Assembly (NCBI RefSeq): GCF_011742555.1
Contig: NZ_JAAQQR010000001.1
Coordinates: forward strand, 248,001 to 312,000
Source of the DNA: Luteibacter jiangsuensis
GTDB lineage: Bacteria; Pseudomonadota; Gammaproteobacteria; Xanthomonadales; Rhodanobacteraceae
Direction of reading: 5' to 3'
Length of the DNA stretch: 64,000 nt
In this document: piece by piece, positions 36,003 through 44,606 of the stretch
How positions within the stretch are numbered: the first letter of the stretch is position 1
Layout of the letters: each line of letters opens with the position of its first letter
Notes under the pieces: generated by a model
The model's input: the letters and a program-made list of their open reading frames with translations, nothing else
Database searches by the model: none
What the model was told of the DNA's origin: nothing
Translations under genes and position numbers: made by a program

Positions 36003-36662
36003 TCAACCGGCCTGCGTGGCTGCCGCTTCCGTCGCGGCGGTGCGGCGGCGCGCCACCGGGCGCGGGGCCGACAGATCGTCGAGCAGCGCCGTGGCTTCCT
36101 TTTCCATCTGCACCACGTAGCCCCCGACCTTCGAGCGGAAGTAGCGGTGCAGCACGTAGGCGGGGATGGAAACGATCAGACCGAAGGCCGTGCAGATCAG
36201 CGCCTCGCCGATGCCGCCGGCCATCTTCGTCGGGTCGCCGATGCCGCCCGCCATCACGTTCAGGAACATGCGGATCAGACCGATCACCGTGCCGAGCAGG
36301 CCAAGCAACGGGCCGATGAGGGCAATGGTGCCGAGCGTGTTCAGGTAACGCTCCATGCGGTGCACCACATGGCGGCCGGTGTCTTCGATGCGTTCCTTGA
36401 TGAGTTCGCGCGGACGGTCGCGCACGGCCAGCGCGCCCGCGAACAGTTCGCCCAGCGGCGAGCCTTTTTCCAGCGCCTCGAGGTGGGCGGCGTCGAGCTT
36501 GGACGAGCGCGCCCATTCGCGGACTTCCGCACCCAGCCCCGGCGGCAGCACGGCCGCGCGGCGCAGGGCCCAGAAGCGTTCCAGCACGATCGCCAGCGCC
36601 GCCAGCGAACAGATCAGGATCGGCGCCAATGCCCAGCCGCCAGCCAGAAGAATCTCGAGCAC
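36003..36662 (-). CDS. exbB: ExbB/MotA/TolQ family proton channel protein
   Basis: 219 residues from a GTG at 36662. Three membrane helices: N-terminal ILICSLAALAIVLERFWAL, and TLGTIALIGPLLGLLGTVIGLI and EALICTAFGLIVSIPAYVL, the MotA_ExbB signature. Partner of ExbD, four bases upstream of it. With msbA and lpxK it forms an envelope operon. The upstream 500 bp is the repeat island. Confidence 0.93.
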   Translation of the reverse strand: MLEILLAGGWALAPILICSLAALAIVLERFWALRRAAVLPPGLGAEVREWARSSKLDAAHLEALEKGSPLGELFAGALAVRDRPRELIKERIEDTGRHVVHRMERYLNTLGTIALIGPLLGLLGTVIGLIRMFLNVMAGGIGDPTKMAGGIGEALICTAFGLIVSIPAYVLHRYFRSKVGGYVVQMEKEATALLDDLSAPRPVARRRTAATEAAATQAG

Positions 36663-36792
36663 GTGAACCCCGGAGCTACGAAAAAGTCAGACCCGGATGA
36701 TAGCAGGGCCGGCCGTTGGGACTGCGCAACCAGTCGCAGCCCGGACAGGAGTCTTTCCCGACGGGGAACACCCGGCCGTGTGCAACCGTGGC

Positions 36793-36826
36793 GCGAGCAC
36801 CCATCGCCGCTGAAGCGGCTCCCACA
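36793..36826 (-). repeat. single REP unit, identical to the one at 37121-37154
   Basis: 34 bases identical to 37121-37154 and in the same orientation. On the minus strand it begins TGTGGGAGCCGCTTCAGCGG, a core with a short hairpin (CCGCTTCAGCGG) as in Pseudomonas-type REP sequences. It marks the left edge of the tandem array region. Confidence 0.8.
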
Positions 36827-36893
36827 GAATGCCGGCCCGCTCTATGCGGGAACCAGCCTGCTCTGTGGCGGCCCGCCAACTCTGCGTGAGCAG

Positions 36894-37074
36894 GCCTGCT
36901 CTGTGTGAGCCAGCCCGCTCTGTGTGAGCCAGCCCGCTCTGTGTGAGCCAGCCTGCTCTGTGTGAACCGGCCTGCTCTGTGTGAGCCAGCCTGCTCTGTG
37001 TGAACCGGCCTGCTCTGTGTGAACCGGCCTGCTCTGTGTGAACCGGCCTGCTCTGTGTTAGCCAGCCTGCTCTG
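36894..37074. repeat. 19-bp tandem repeat array
   Basis: Nine full 19-bp units, of types GCCTGCTCTGTGTGAGCCA, GCCCGCTCTGTGTGAGCCA and GCCTGCTCTGTGTGAACCG, run without spacers from 36894 to 37064, and a tenth begins at 37065 and merges into the REP doublet. Diverged copies are visible before it from about 36855. The period is not a multiple of three. Variable copy number would be expected. Confidence 0.85.
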
Positions 37075-37154
37075 TGTGGGAGCCGGCTATGCCGGCGATC
37101 CCGCGGCAGCGGGCACTCTCGCGAGCACCCATCGCCGCTGAAGCGGCTCCCACA
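37075..37154. repeat. REP doublet (REPIN-like), copy 1
   Basis: Two REP units face each other: TGTGGGAGCCGGCTATGCCG at the left and CCGCTGAAGCGGCTCCCACA at the right end, around a GC-rich centre. The reverse complement is nearly the same as 46872-46954, differing at a few bases in the centre. The whole could fold into one long hairpin. Confidence 0.8.
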
Positions 37155-37161
37155 CCAGCCC

Positions 37162-40100
37162 TTAGCGTGCCAGCAGCTCCAGTTCGGCCACGGCGCCCGG
37201 CGCGTCGGATTCGAGCACCAGCCGGTAATGCTTGTACGAAGCCGTCTGCTTGAGCGCGAAAGCCCGCGTCTGACGGTGCCAGGGGAAGTGCTCGTCGCGC
37301 CGCTCGTCCAGGGTGGTCCACTGCTTGCCGTCCGCGGAGCCCTGCAGGGTCCAGTGCGAAGGTGCCGGAAGGGCTGCGCCGGACGTGATGGTGTAGACGG
37401 CCACGGCAGCAGGCTTGTCCAGGCGGTAGTCGACGGTCGTCTTCCCCTTGGGCAGGGCGAACTCGGTGGACGAGTCGTTGTCCGCCACGGCGGCGAGCTT
37501 CGCGTCACGGTGGCCGCCGAGGCTGACGCCTCCCGCCCGGGTCACGTCGCGCAGCGGCGACGGCTTTTGGCCCTCGGCCGTGATCGACGCAGGCAAGGCG
37601 TCCGCACCGGTGCCCCACCGAGACGGCTCCGCGCCCATCGTGAAGTCGAGCGTCGCGCCCTTCGCCAGCAGTTCGTGCGGCAGGGTGAGCTTGTTCCAGG
37701 GCTGGCCGTTCACCTTCAGCGACTGCACATAGCGGTTGGTGTCGCTCACGCCCGGTGCACGGATGTCGATCTTCTCCCCATTCTCCAGGGCGATCGTCAT
37801 GCGCGGGAAATGCGGTGCCCCGATCACGTACTCGGGCGTGCCCATGCGCAACGGATAGAAGCCCGCCGCCGCGAACAGCCACCACGCCGACATCTCGCCA
37901 TTGTCCTCGTCGCCGGGATACCCCTGGCCGATTTCGCTGCCCACGTAAAGGCGCGACACCGCATCGCGCAGCTTGTCCTGCGCCTTCCAGGGCTGGCCGG
38001 CCTCGTCGTACATCCAGATAATGTGGTGCGAAGGCTGGTTCGAATGGCCGTATTGGCCCATGCGCACGTCGCGGGCTTCCAGCATTTCGTGGATCACGCC
38101 GCCGTAGTCGCCCACGTCGAAGGTGCCGGGCGTGGAGAAGAAGGTGTCGAGTTTCGCGGCAAGCGCGTCGCGCCCGCCGTAGAGCCCGGCGAGGCCGGCA
38201 CCGTCCTGCGGCGCGTGGAACGCCATGTTCCAGGCGTCTGTTTCGGTGTAGTCGCCGCCCCAGCGCGTCGGATTGAAGTCCTTCGCGTTCCAGCGCCACT
38301 TGCCCGCCGGATCGCGGGCGACGAAGAAGCCCACTTCAGGTTCGAACAGGTTGGTGTAACCCAGCGCGCGGGAGCGATACCACACCGCGTCGTCGGCGTA
38401 ATTGCGGTAACCGTCCCCGTTCGCCGGCGTCTTCGCCAGCGCCGCGGCGAGATTGCCGATAGCGAAATCGTTGATGTAGCCGTCCATCGACCAGGACAGA
38501 CCCTCATCCACCTTGTCGTCGGTGTAGCCGTTGAACAGCGACCGCTCGATGCCCTTGCGGCCCGCGCCCTTCACGTCGCTGGCGCTGGAGGCGTTGCGGA
38601 TCGCCGACTGGTAGAACGACGCCACGTCGAAATTGCGGACACCCTTCAGCCAGGCGTCGGAGAAGGCCACGTCCGAGCTGGTGCCCACCATGAGGTCGGC
38701 ATATCCCGGCGAGCTCCAGCGCGCGATCCAGCCGCCGTCGCGATACTGCTGCACGAAGCCGTCGATCATCTCGCCCGCTTCCTTCGGGGTGAACAGCACG
38801 TACGCCGGCCACGCCGTGCGATAGGTGTCCCAGAAGCCATTGTTGACGTAGGGCTTGCCGTCGACGATGCGCGCACCGGTATGCGTGTCCGTGTTCGCGC
38901 CAACGGCGGCCGAGAACGGACTGGCGTAGCGCCACACCGGTTTGTCCTTGCTGCCCGTGTTCTCGTAGGCGCGGTTCGGATACAGGAACAGGCGGTAGAG
39001 GTTCGAGTAGAGGATGGTGCGTTCGTCGCGCGTGGCACCCTCCACCTTCACGATGCCGAGGCGTTCGTCCCAGGCCTTGCGGGCACGCTCGTGCACGCTG
39101 TCGAACGTGTCGCCCGCCGCGATTTCCTGCGCCAGGTTGGCCTTGGCCTGATCGATGCCGATGAGCGAGGTGGCGATCCGCATCGTGACCGTGCGGCCGT
39201 CTTTCTTCGACGTGTCGAAGCCGTACCATGCCGAGGCAGCGTCGCGATGCTCGCCGGTCAACCGGCCGCTCTCGGTCACGGGCTTGTCGAACTCGGCATA
39301 GAAGAACAGGCGCGTGGCGCCCGTGGACAGCCGGCTCTTCACGTCCGACCGGCCCTGGATGGAACGGCCGGCGGGGTCGAGCGTGACCGAGGCATCGCCG
39401 TTGATGTTGTCGAACACCAGTTGCGCACGCGGTCCCGCGAACGTGAAGCGGAACATCGCCGCATGGTCGGTCGGCGTGATTTCGGTGGCGATACCGTTGT
39501 CGAAATGCACGCTGTAGTAGTCTGGGTGCGCCACTTCGGCATCGTGGCCGAACGCGAGCGCGCGCGTTTCGCGCTTCAGCGGCGGCGCGCCGGACGGCAC
39601 CTGGGCGGGCATCACCTGGAAGGTCTGCCGCTCGCCCATCCACGGGCTGGGCTCGTGCGAGAGGGCGAACGCCTCGATGCGGGGACGGTTGTCGTCGCCG
39701 TTTCGCTCCTGGTACTGGTAGAGCCAGTTCGAACCGGCGTTGGTCGTGGGCGTCCAGAAATTGAATCCGTGCGGCATCGCCACCGCGGGGAAGTTGTTGC
39801 CGCGCGAGAAATTGCCGTTCGCGTTGGAGCCACGACGGGTGTCCACGTAGTCGGTGGGATGCGTGCTGGCGATGTCTTTCACCACGCCGATGCGCACGTC
39901 GTCGAGATAGCCTTCGAACGACTTGCCGGCAGGCGGGTTCACGACCAGTTCGATACCGCGCACGCGCCGACCCTTGGCTACCGCGCCGAGATCCACGCTC
40001 ACGTAGTTCCACTGGTCCGGATAGAGCACACGGCCCTCGCCCTGCCCCTTCGCCGTGGCCGGCACGCGATGCTGGTCGCGCGCGCCGCTAGTGGAGAGGC

Positions 40101-40503
40101 GCGAACCGTCGTCGAACACCACGTCCACGCTCGCGTAGTTGGCGGGATTGCTCAGGTCGTCCTTGTTCGAGCGCGGGAAGACCAGCCAGGAAAGCGTGGT
40201 GCCTTCGGCGACACTCACATCGGTGTCGAACAGCCTGGCCACGGCAGGGCTGCCGTTCGCCGTCCCCGCGTAACGCAAGGAATGGGTACCCGTGAAGCCC
40301 ACGTTCGCCTTCGCCGTGAGCACGGCTTCGGGCGGCGGGCCGCCCACGACGCGCACGTCGAGGCCGCCGGTGCCCTTCGCGAGCACCTGGGGCCCGCCCT
40401 GCTCGAACGAACTGTCGAATCGCGCAGCGGCCGCGAAAGCCGCGCCGGTGAGGAGGATGGAGGACACCGCCAGTGCGATCCCCGACTTTTTCCAAACCTG
40501 CAT
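37162..40503 (-). CDS. secreted GH92 alpha-mannosidase with C-terminal F5/8-type domain
   Basis: 1113 residues from the ATG at 40503 (a GTG at 40515 is also open). Signal peptide VWKKSGIALAVSSILLTGAAFAAA. An extra N-terminal beta-rich module of about 200 residues (a carbohydrate-binding look) precedes the GH92 core, which starts near DYVDTRRGSNANGNFSRGNNFPAVAMPHG. The conserved GDEDNGEMSAW (about 864-874) carries candidate base aspartates. The last 130 residues resemble a discoidin/F5-8 C domain. GH92 enzymes remove alpha-linked mannose in a calcium-dependent way. It has its own promoter and interrupts the comEC-exbB neighbourhood. Confidence 0.93.
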   Translation of the reverse strand: MQVWKKSGIALAVSSILLTGAAFAAAARFDSSFEQGGPQVLAKGTGGLDVRVVGGPPPEAVLTAKANVGFTGTHSLRYAGTANGSPAVARLFDTDVSVAEGTTLSWLVFPRSNKDDLSNPANYASVDVVFDDGSRLSTSGARDQHRVPATAKGQGEGRVLYPDQWNYVSVDLGAVAKGRRVRGIELVVNPPAGKSFEGYLDDVRIGVVKDIASTHPTDYVDTRRGSNANGNFSRGNNFPAVAMPHGFNFWTPTTNAGSNWLYQYQERNGDDNRPRIEAFALSHEPSPWMGERQTFQVMPAQVPSGAPPLKRETRALAFGHDAEVAHPDYYSVHFDNGIATEITPTDHAAMFRFTFAGPRAQLVFDNINGDASVTLDPAGRSIQGRSDVKSRLSTGATRLFFYAEFDKPVTESGRLTGEHRDAASAWYGFDTSKKDGRTVTMRIATSLIGIDQAKANLAQEIAAGDTFDSVHERARKAWDERLGIVKVEGATRDERTILYSNLYRLFLYPNRAYENTGSKDKPVWRYASPFSAAVGANTDTHTGARIVDGKPYVNNGFWDTYRTAWPAYVLFTPKEAGEMIDGFVQQYRDGGWIARWSSPGYADLMVGTSSDVAFSDAWLKGVRNFDVASFYQSAIRNASSASDVKGAGRKGIERSLFNGYTDDKVDEGLSWSMDGYINDFAIGNLAAALAKTPANGDGYRNYADDAVWYRSRALGYTNLFEPEVGFFVARDPAGKWRWNAKDFNPTRWGGDYTETDAWNMAFHAPQDGAGLAGLYGGRDALAAKLDTFFSTPGTFDVGDYGGVIHEMLEARDVRMGQYGHSNQPSHHIIWMYDEAGQPWKAQDKLRDAVSRLYVGSEIGQGYPGDEDNGEMSAWWLFAAAGFYPLRMGTPEYVIGAPHFPRMTIALENGEKIDIRAPGVSDTNRYVQSLKVNGQPWNKLTLPHELLAKGATLDFTMGAEPSRWGTGADALPASITAEGQKPSPLRDVTRAGGVSLGGHRDAKLAAVADNDSSTEFALPKGKTTVDYRLDKPAAVAVYTITSGAALPAPSHWTLQGSADGKQWTTLDERRDEHFPWHRQTRAFALKQTASYKHYRLVLESDAPGAVAELELLAR

Positions 40504-40543
40504 CGATCCCGTCACGCTCGTCCCCTTCGATTACGGAAGCGGC

Positions 40544-43694: not shown

Positions 43695-44606
43695 TCAGCC
43701 TTTGCTCTTCTGCTGATCGCCTCGTTCATGCGCCATGTTCGGCTGCGACGCCTCCGGCGCCGGCACCTTCGGTGCCGGATTCGATCCACCCGGCGTGACA
43801 TCCGGCGTGCCTGCGGCATGCTGCTCACCGGTGGGCCAGTTCGGCGGCTGACGGTCGCGTTCGCGCTTCGCATCGAGCAGCGCCTGGATGTGCGCGACCG
43901 CCTCTTCCTGCGTGATGTGCTGGACCGGCGTTTCGGTCGTGCTCTCGGAAGCCGGCGGACGTGCGGGCTTCGGCGCGGCCTTCGGTACCGGACGCGGCTT
44001 GGCGACGGCGGGAGCGGCGGACGTGTTGCGTGCGGGTGCCTTGCGCGTCGCCGCCGTGCCGGCGGTCTTGCGTACGGCCGGCGCCGGGGCGGCCTTCTTC
44101 ACGGCGGGCTTGCCGGAGGCGACCTTGCGCGCGGTGCTCTTCGGCGTCGCGGCCCTGGTCGCGGTGCTGCGCCTGGCGGTTGTCTTCTTGGCGGTGGAAC
44201 GTTTGGCCGGAGCCTTCCGTGCCGACTTGCGCGTGGCGACCTTCTTCGCTGCGCTCTTCCTGGTCGCAGCCGACTTCGGGGCGGCGCGCTTCGTGGTTGC
44301 CTTCTTCGCGGTCGCCCGCTTTGCCGTTACCTTCCTGGCAGTGGCCTTCTTGGCGGTAGCCTTCTTGGCAGTGGCCCGCTTGGCGGTAGCCTTCTTGGCA
44401 GTGGCCCGCTTTGCGGTGGTCTTCTTCGCAGCGGACTTCTTCGCTGCCGGACGGGTCGTGGCCTTGCGCGCCACCTTCCGTGCGGTCTTCTTCGCGGGAG
44501 CCTTCCTTGCCGACGACTTCGTTGCAGATGTCTTCCTGGCGGTCTTCTTCGCTGCCGTCTTTCGTGCCGCGGACTTCTTCGCGGCGGACTTTCGGGTCGT
44601 AGCCAT
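43695..44606 (-). CDS. histone H1-like Lys/Ala-rich DNA-binding protein
   Basis: 303 residues from the ATG at 44606 (AGGAGGAATGAGCGC upstream). The first ~200 residues are Lys/Ala/Thr repeats such as KKATAKRATAKK, like AlgP and other bacterial H1-like proteins that bind DNA without sequence preference. A non-repetitive tail (HITQEEAVAHIQALLDAKRERDRQPP) ends in a Pro/Gly-rich stretch. The repeats are also DNA repeats (around 44320-44420, about 15- and 30-bp units), so repeat number may vary between strains. Own promoter likely in the 166-bp gap upstream. Confidence 0.8.
   Translation of the reverse strand: MATTRKSAAKKSAARKTAAKKTARKTSATKSSARKAPAKKTARKVARKATTRPAAKKSAAKKTTAKRATAKKATAKRATAKKATAKKATARKVTAKRATAKKATTKRAAPKSAATRKSAAKKVATRKSARKAPAKRSTAKKTTARRSTATRAATPKSTARKVASGKPAVKKAAPAPAVRKTAGTAATRKAPARNTSAAPAVAKPRPVPKAAPKPARPPASESTTETPVQHITQEEAVAHIQALLDAKRERDRQPPNWPTGEQHAAGTPDVTPGGSNPAPKVPAPEASQPNMAHERGDQQKSKG

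Follow-up and report, generated by a model that had tools for sequence, protein, structure and literature searches.

The window analysed here is a 64,000-nucleotide stretch (C11:248001-312000) of the Luteibacter genome G000, an assembly of 4.33 Mb in 20 contigs; positions below are those of the window. A tandem array of short units lies in the intergenic interval 36663-37161, with a TolQ/ExbB-like gene on one side and a GH92 family glycosyl hydrolase gene on the other, both on the minus strand. The two genes are adjacent in 10 named relatives (37 loci examined). We found no match to an Rfam RNA family in the window at the gathering threshold, and no sigma-70 promoter or intrinsic terminator in 36500-37400. 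The interval also holds REPs and the paired elements that they form, REPINs, which give the locus the following layout.

36003-36662, minus strand: TolQ/ExbB-like gene, its start facing the array; the TolQ and ExbB matches fall below curated cut-offs
36778-36802, minus strand: spacer remnant of REPIN1, left REP arm missing; by eye like the spacers of intact copies (GGGCAACC...GCGAGCACCC), with a similar state in Luteibacter sp. SG786
36803-36826, minus strand: REP, right arm of the truncated REPIN1 (C11:284803-284826, minus), inside the first 34-bp copy
36827-36844, plus strand: linker GAATGCCGGCCCGCTCTA from REPIN1 to the array; GAAAGCCGGCCCGCTCTG in SG786; related REP-linker compounds occur in genomes of the genus
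36845-37074, plus strand: tandem array of 12 units (one of 21 bp, eleven of 19 bp), from reading the units in REP phase and from TRF
36904-37074, plus strand: homogeneous inner nine units, 0-2 mismatches from consensus, with AGCCAG and AACCGG variants interspersed
37075-37099, plus strand: REP, left arm of the intact REPIN2 (C11:285075-285099, plus); the array runs directly into it
37131-37154, minus strand: REP, right arm of REPIN2 (C11:285131-285154, minus), inside the second 34-bp copy
37162-40515, minus strand: GH92 family glycosyl hydrolase gene, its 3' end adjoining REPIN2 (TIGR01180, 461.3 bits, cut-off 249.55)

REPIN2 (37075-37154) is intact: two inverted REPs, 37075-37099 on the plus and 37131-37154 on the minus strand, enclose a spacer, and the element folds as one hairpin (37074-37154, z -4.24). 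The REPs read TGTGGGAGCCGGCTATGCCGGCGAT and TGTGGGAGCCGCTTCAGCGGCGAT, each with a palindrome after a GTGG or GTAG head. The spacer that is left marks REPIN1, by eye, as a second REPIN, truncated on the left. The initial annotation had recorded two same-direction 34-bp REP copies at 36793-36826 and 37121-37154. Both are present and identical, and the identity reaches one further base on the left; the third, inverted REP at 37075-37099 was absent from that description. Because the 34-bp copies lie inside the right arms of REPIN1 and REPIN2, they are equivalent arms of neighbouring REPINs. A genome search for the 34-mer, which the same annotation had suggested, returned 88 exact copies (54 + 34; none in the control), so the identity of the two copies here is unremarkable and carries no weight alone.

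The units of the array are contiguous, head to tail and well above chance: TRF reported 36853-37078 with 11.9 copies and a score of 312, and none of 30 first-order Markov shuffles of the window scored above 65. Nine contiguous 19-bp units had been described at 36894-37064; a tandem array is indeed there, but it comprises 12 units at 36845-37074. Nor does its last unit run into the second 34-bp REP, as had been thought, since the array abuts the inverted REP at 37075-37099 and not the copy at 37121. The likeness noted earlier between the unit core and the REP start was borne out, and the consensus, TGTGAGCCAGCCTGCTCTG, consists of a REP head (TGTG[GG]AGCCGGC) followed by a GCTCTG edge. Unit 1 is 21 bp long and retains the GG. 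The units near REPIN1 are degenerate, unit 2 differing from the consensus at six positions and unit 3 at three.

When we folded part of the array (36894-37042), it did no better than shuffles (z -0.02) and no REP hairpin was found in the unit, indicating that the array itself is not a REP cluster. A reading of the array as structured DNA was rejected on the same value. A coding repeat was rejected too: ORFs of at least 80 aa cross the array, but the unit length of 19 is not a multiple of 3, and they were judged incidental. Elsewhere in the window, a 15/30-bp repeat at 44283-44444 (TRF score 172) looks by eye like a repetitive coding type.

REPs and edge arrays in Luteibacter genomes

The genome is rich in REPs, with 545 matches (271 + 274) to the REP core TGTGGGAGN{11,15}CGAT and none in the control. 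A 464-kb sample, made up of the window and 400 kb more, contains 79 REPs arranged as 34 REPINs and 11 singles. Directly before 12 of the 63 exact REPs in this sample stands GCTTTG or GCTCTG, so the element edge often extends six bases beyond the core. One gene in the genome passes a Y1 transposase model, and its product is a REP-associated tyrosine transposase (RAYT; NF047646, 135.6 bits, cut-off 80), which answers the earlier suggestion to look for one; REPINs lie just downstream of the gene. With both a high REP copy number and a RAYT gene in the genome, the REPIN is predicted from sequence to be a RAYT-linked paired REP element.

Arrays of the same kind occur on other REPIN edges, and the local flank is duplicated along with the head. 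A strict pattern of two TGTGGGAG heads 4-30 bases apart matches 31 times in this genome (control 0) and 479 times in 12 of the 23 genus genomes (1 control match), a total to which tandem full REPs contribute, especially in G009. Across the 23 genomes the number of head pairs follows REP content (Spearman 0.82), and such pairs are present in 8 of 9 REP-rich versus 4 of 14 REP-poor genomes. Within the class, a tighter pattern (4-13 bases) gave 73 matches in 8 of 185 genomes, our own included; its reversed control gave single matches in 6 genomes, so two of the genomes, with one match each, are uninformative. The edge arrays of the genus have other units, with periods of 12-38 bp, and sit on other REPIN edges.

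Two properties were scored on array rows taken without choice from this genome and SG786. Of these, 36 of 38 end on a hairpin, a check that 349 of 5000 random places also pass; the two failing rows are both L129, which also lies inside L021 and was counted twice here and in the larger set. When the flank before the first head was compared with the flank before the REP head in 36 rows, 3.11 of 6 bases agreed (permuted mean 1.93, reached in 0 of 5000 permutations); for the 23 rows with units below 24 bp the agreement was 2.96 versus 1.95 permuted, reached once in 5000. With hand-picked loci included, 51 of 53 rows end on a hairpin, and 34 truncated rows agree at 3.41 of 6 flank bases (permuted mean 1.96, 0 of 5000 reaching it), figures that are flattered, as is the seed search described below, by 14 hand-picked loci (L206-L218 and L049) of mostly regular arrays. 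Thirteen loci (6 orthologs and 7 dispersed-compound copies) had been dropped before these tests and the seed search. The window array is outside the rows because its units are not TGTGGGAG.

Among individual loci, two have very regular arrays: L205 (G015:C3:586900-588000), with a 12-bp unit and a total of 8 heads, and L206 (G010:C1:188300-189400), with a 14-bp unit and a total of 7 heads, which sits at a REP of a different class. A dispersed compound, in which a similar flank is joined to a truncated REP head (TGTGGGAGCCGCTTCGCTTTG or near it) and a REPIN, occurs at several sites in both species (L132 and L136 here; L185-L189 and L193 in SG786).

Copy number in the sister species and at orthologous loci

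The closest relative found is Luteibacter sp. SG786 (taken to be G015/L002), whose GH92 protein is 97% identical (L062). REPIN1 remnant, linker and REPIN2 are the same at its site, but it has 3 units where this genome has 12, counts that come from assemblies of one genome per species, in which short-read assembly can miscount repeats. A comparison of copy number in relatives, as the initial annotation had advised, thus shows a difference between the same REPINs. The flanks are colinear in both species while the unit number has changed; the first 34-mer of SG786 is identical to ours and the second differs at 4 of 34 bases. Bacterial minisatellites, or VNTR loci, are made of short contiguous units with a homogeneous interior and a degenerate far end, and their copy number differs between relatives. 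The array has this layout, and its copy number differs between close relatives, here sister species; what sets it apart is a unit that derives from, and abuts, the edge of a mobile element.

In the spacer between the two genes, Luteibacter sp. OK325 (L049) carries a REPIN and an 18-bp array of its own, TGTGGGAGCC(G/A)CTTCACC, which presumably arose independently. At L045 the spacer has a REPIN and no array, and no REPIN or REP was found in it at L043, L044, L048 or L050. By eye, the GH92/ExbB-like spacer carries other REP classes in other Luteibacter species (L046, L047 and L105), so the spot looks like a recurrent REP site.

We then considered all 26 array loci of this genome, that is, the window array and 25 strict-pattern loci. 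SG786 orthologs were paired by eye for 24 of them (17 + 7), leaving out L132 and L136, which belong to the dispersed compound. A REPIN is common to both species at 20 of the 24; at L135, L137, L142 and L143 the REPIN is not clearly shared or another REP class is present. Three of these (L135, L142 and L143) face another REP class, GTAGGAGCCGCTATAGCGGCGA or a near form, at the same spot in SG786 (L230, L219 and L232), a replacement of REP class at one place.

Judged by eye, the unit number differs at 7 of the 20 shared loci (the window, L123, L128, L130, L131, L139 and L146). It is unchanged at 8 (L125, L126, L127, L133, L134, L138, L144 and L145), which indicates that many arrays are slow, and unclear or complex at 5 (L021, L025, L129, L140 and L141). 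Apart from the window, L130, L131 and L123 differ cleanly by a 19-bp unit, L139 by one of 38 bp, L146 by one of 17 bp and L128 by one of 25 bp. At L139, L146 and L128, SG786 carries the REPIN without a duplicated unit, so that a unit was either gained on an existing REPIN or lost from it. A different event separates L025 from its SG786 counterpart L224: SG786 carries two REPINs there, against one REPIN and a truncated head in this genome, and AGCCGG stands at both breakpoints. The idea that all truncated heads are tandem duplications was dropped, as this head is the remnant of a REPIN loss.

Origin of the array and rival explanations

We read the array, with a probability of roughly 0.8, as a minisatellite that tandem duplication and slippage built from the outer edge of a REPIN. 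The earlier suggestion of growth by slippage from a REP edge is upheld as to the edge by the edge-derived units, the 12 versus 3 copies, the similar arrays and the RAYT gene; slippage would be the means. The ancestral state may have been REPIN1, a linker (AAAGCCGGCCCGCTCTG) and REPIN2, in which 21 bp would separate the AGCCGG of the linker from that of the REPIN2 head. If these two copies mispaired by strand slippage or underwent unequal exchange, a first unit consisting of the TGTGGGAGCCGG head and the GCTCTG edge would result, an early loss of 2 bp would shorten it to 19 bp, and further slippage would raise the number to 12 in this genome and to 3 in its sister species. By stalling replication at its base, the REPIN hairpin would probably promote slippage; archaeal polymerases are reported to slip at a template hairpin in vitro in the available part of PMC4134008.

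The layout of the locus and its difference in copy number are direct observations, as are the similar arrays on other REPIN edges and the copying of local flank along with the head; the 21-bp seed at the window locus, the hairpin as cause, and replication slippage rather than recombination are steps that we infer. For the seed, two REP-linker-REP compounds that lack an array, L224 and L027, carry one AGCCGG in the linker and another in the REP head, at a distance of exactly 21 bp. The older form of the unit has this length, and copies of this kind suggest how the first unit could have formed. A pattern for a REP followed by a linker of this type has 9 matches, spread over 3 of the 23 genomes (3 in this genome, 5 in SG786 and 1 in G020; control 0). 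Against the seed, this genome's own linker at the window locus reads TGCCGG, not AGCCGG. In a wider seed search, in which the chain inflates the run lengths of multi-copy arrays, L235/L146 showed a CGGCT repeat at the matching 17-bp spacing, but it ranked only second, behind a longer 6-base repeat at 33 bp, and the flanks of these two loci are not closely alike; at L128 and L139 no repeat at the unit spacing appeared among the four best direct repeats.

Units on REPIN edges could also be made enzymatically, if RAYT nicked beside the REP and the free 3' end then served as primer for local re-synthesis or for strand transfer, so that head and flank ended up in tandem copies. The RAYT gene with REPINs beside it and the position of the examined arrays on REP edges suit such a route, as does TnpA-REP of E. 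coli, for which the accessible part of PMC8266576 reports cleavage at CT dinucleotides lying 5' or 3' of REPs. However, the breakpoints are not fixed, since periods range over 12-38 bp and the heads are truncated at many different points, and some compounds offer direct repeats at the unit spacing. We regard this route as unlikely, and with it the broader proposal that REPIN edges are recurrent birthplaces of minisatellites through RAYT nicking, with head and local flank copied, and not through passive slippage.

Still less probable is that the units are scars of REPINs lost from an older tandem cluster, repeated deletions between AGCCGG copies having left heads and linkers behind. The REPIN loss at L025/L224, with AGCCGG at both breakpoints, is an event of this type, and L173 holds a cluster of several REPINs with a similar linker; yet twelve alike scars would require about twelve parallel deletions, and SG786 has 3 units and no extra REPINs at the site. 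Such a loss may explain the first unit, not the growth.

The proposal of a mobile or recombining cassette between the two identical REPs found no support and is very improbable: the array does lie between two identical direct 34-bp copies, but the 34-mer occurs 88 times in the genome, the copies are the same arms of neighbouring REPINs, the second differs at 4 of 34 bases in SG786, only the unit number changed between colinear flanks, and a genome search for the unit core (at most 2 mismatches) gave no second 19-bp-spaced run among the 40 matches listed (13 in the reversed control), only a different array of 25-bp period at C13:156-244. Under the preferred reading, growth from the REPIN edge by duplication and slippage, the array needs no function and is probably a neutral by-product.

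Relation to known repeats and biological meaning

Tandem clusters of the SMAG (GTAG REP) elements of Stenotrophomonas maltophilia vary in copy number and are used for typing, and they resemble the array in that REP and neighbouring flank are repeated in tandem and vary in number between strains; their units, as given in the available part of that report, hold a whole REP or REP dimer (e.g., 50 and 103 bp), whereas only the hairpin-less outer head is repeated here (PMC2613905). The REPINs of Pseudomonas fluorescens SBW25 are likewise paired inverted REPs that form tandem clusters with flanks, with clusters beside RAYT genes, but in the portion available those clusters repeat whole REPINs and not edge fragments (PMC3116915). 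The initial annotation had been aware of no description of such an array at this spot. Variable-copy tandem REP clusters are already known; for arrays of the hairpin-less REP head alone, we found no earlier description in the open-licence PMC literature, and the hairpin-less edge unit is what sets this array apart from them.

A mobile hairpin element can thus leave in intergenic DNA, besides copies of itself, changing short repeats taken from its own edge. Similar stutters beside the same element elsewhere suggest that REPINs seed variable repeats. Edge arrays could be used for typing and could preserve a record of how REPINs were gained and lost, and the sister-species pairs form a small natural data set on whether hairpins or RAYT drive the birth of repeats. 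If the RAYT-nicking reading were true, a domesticated transposase would be writing variable repeats into intergenic DNA across many genomes.
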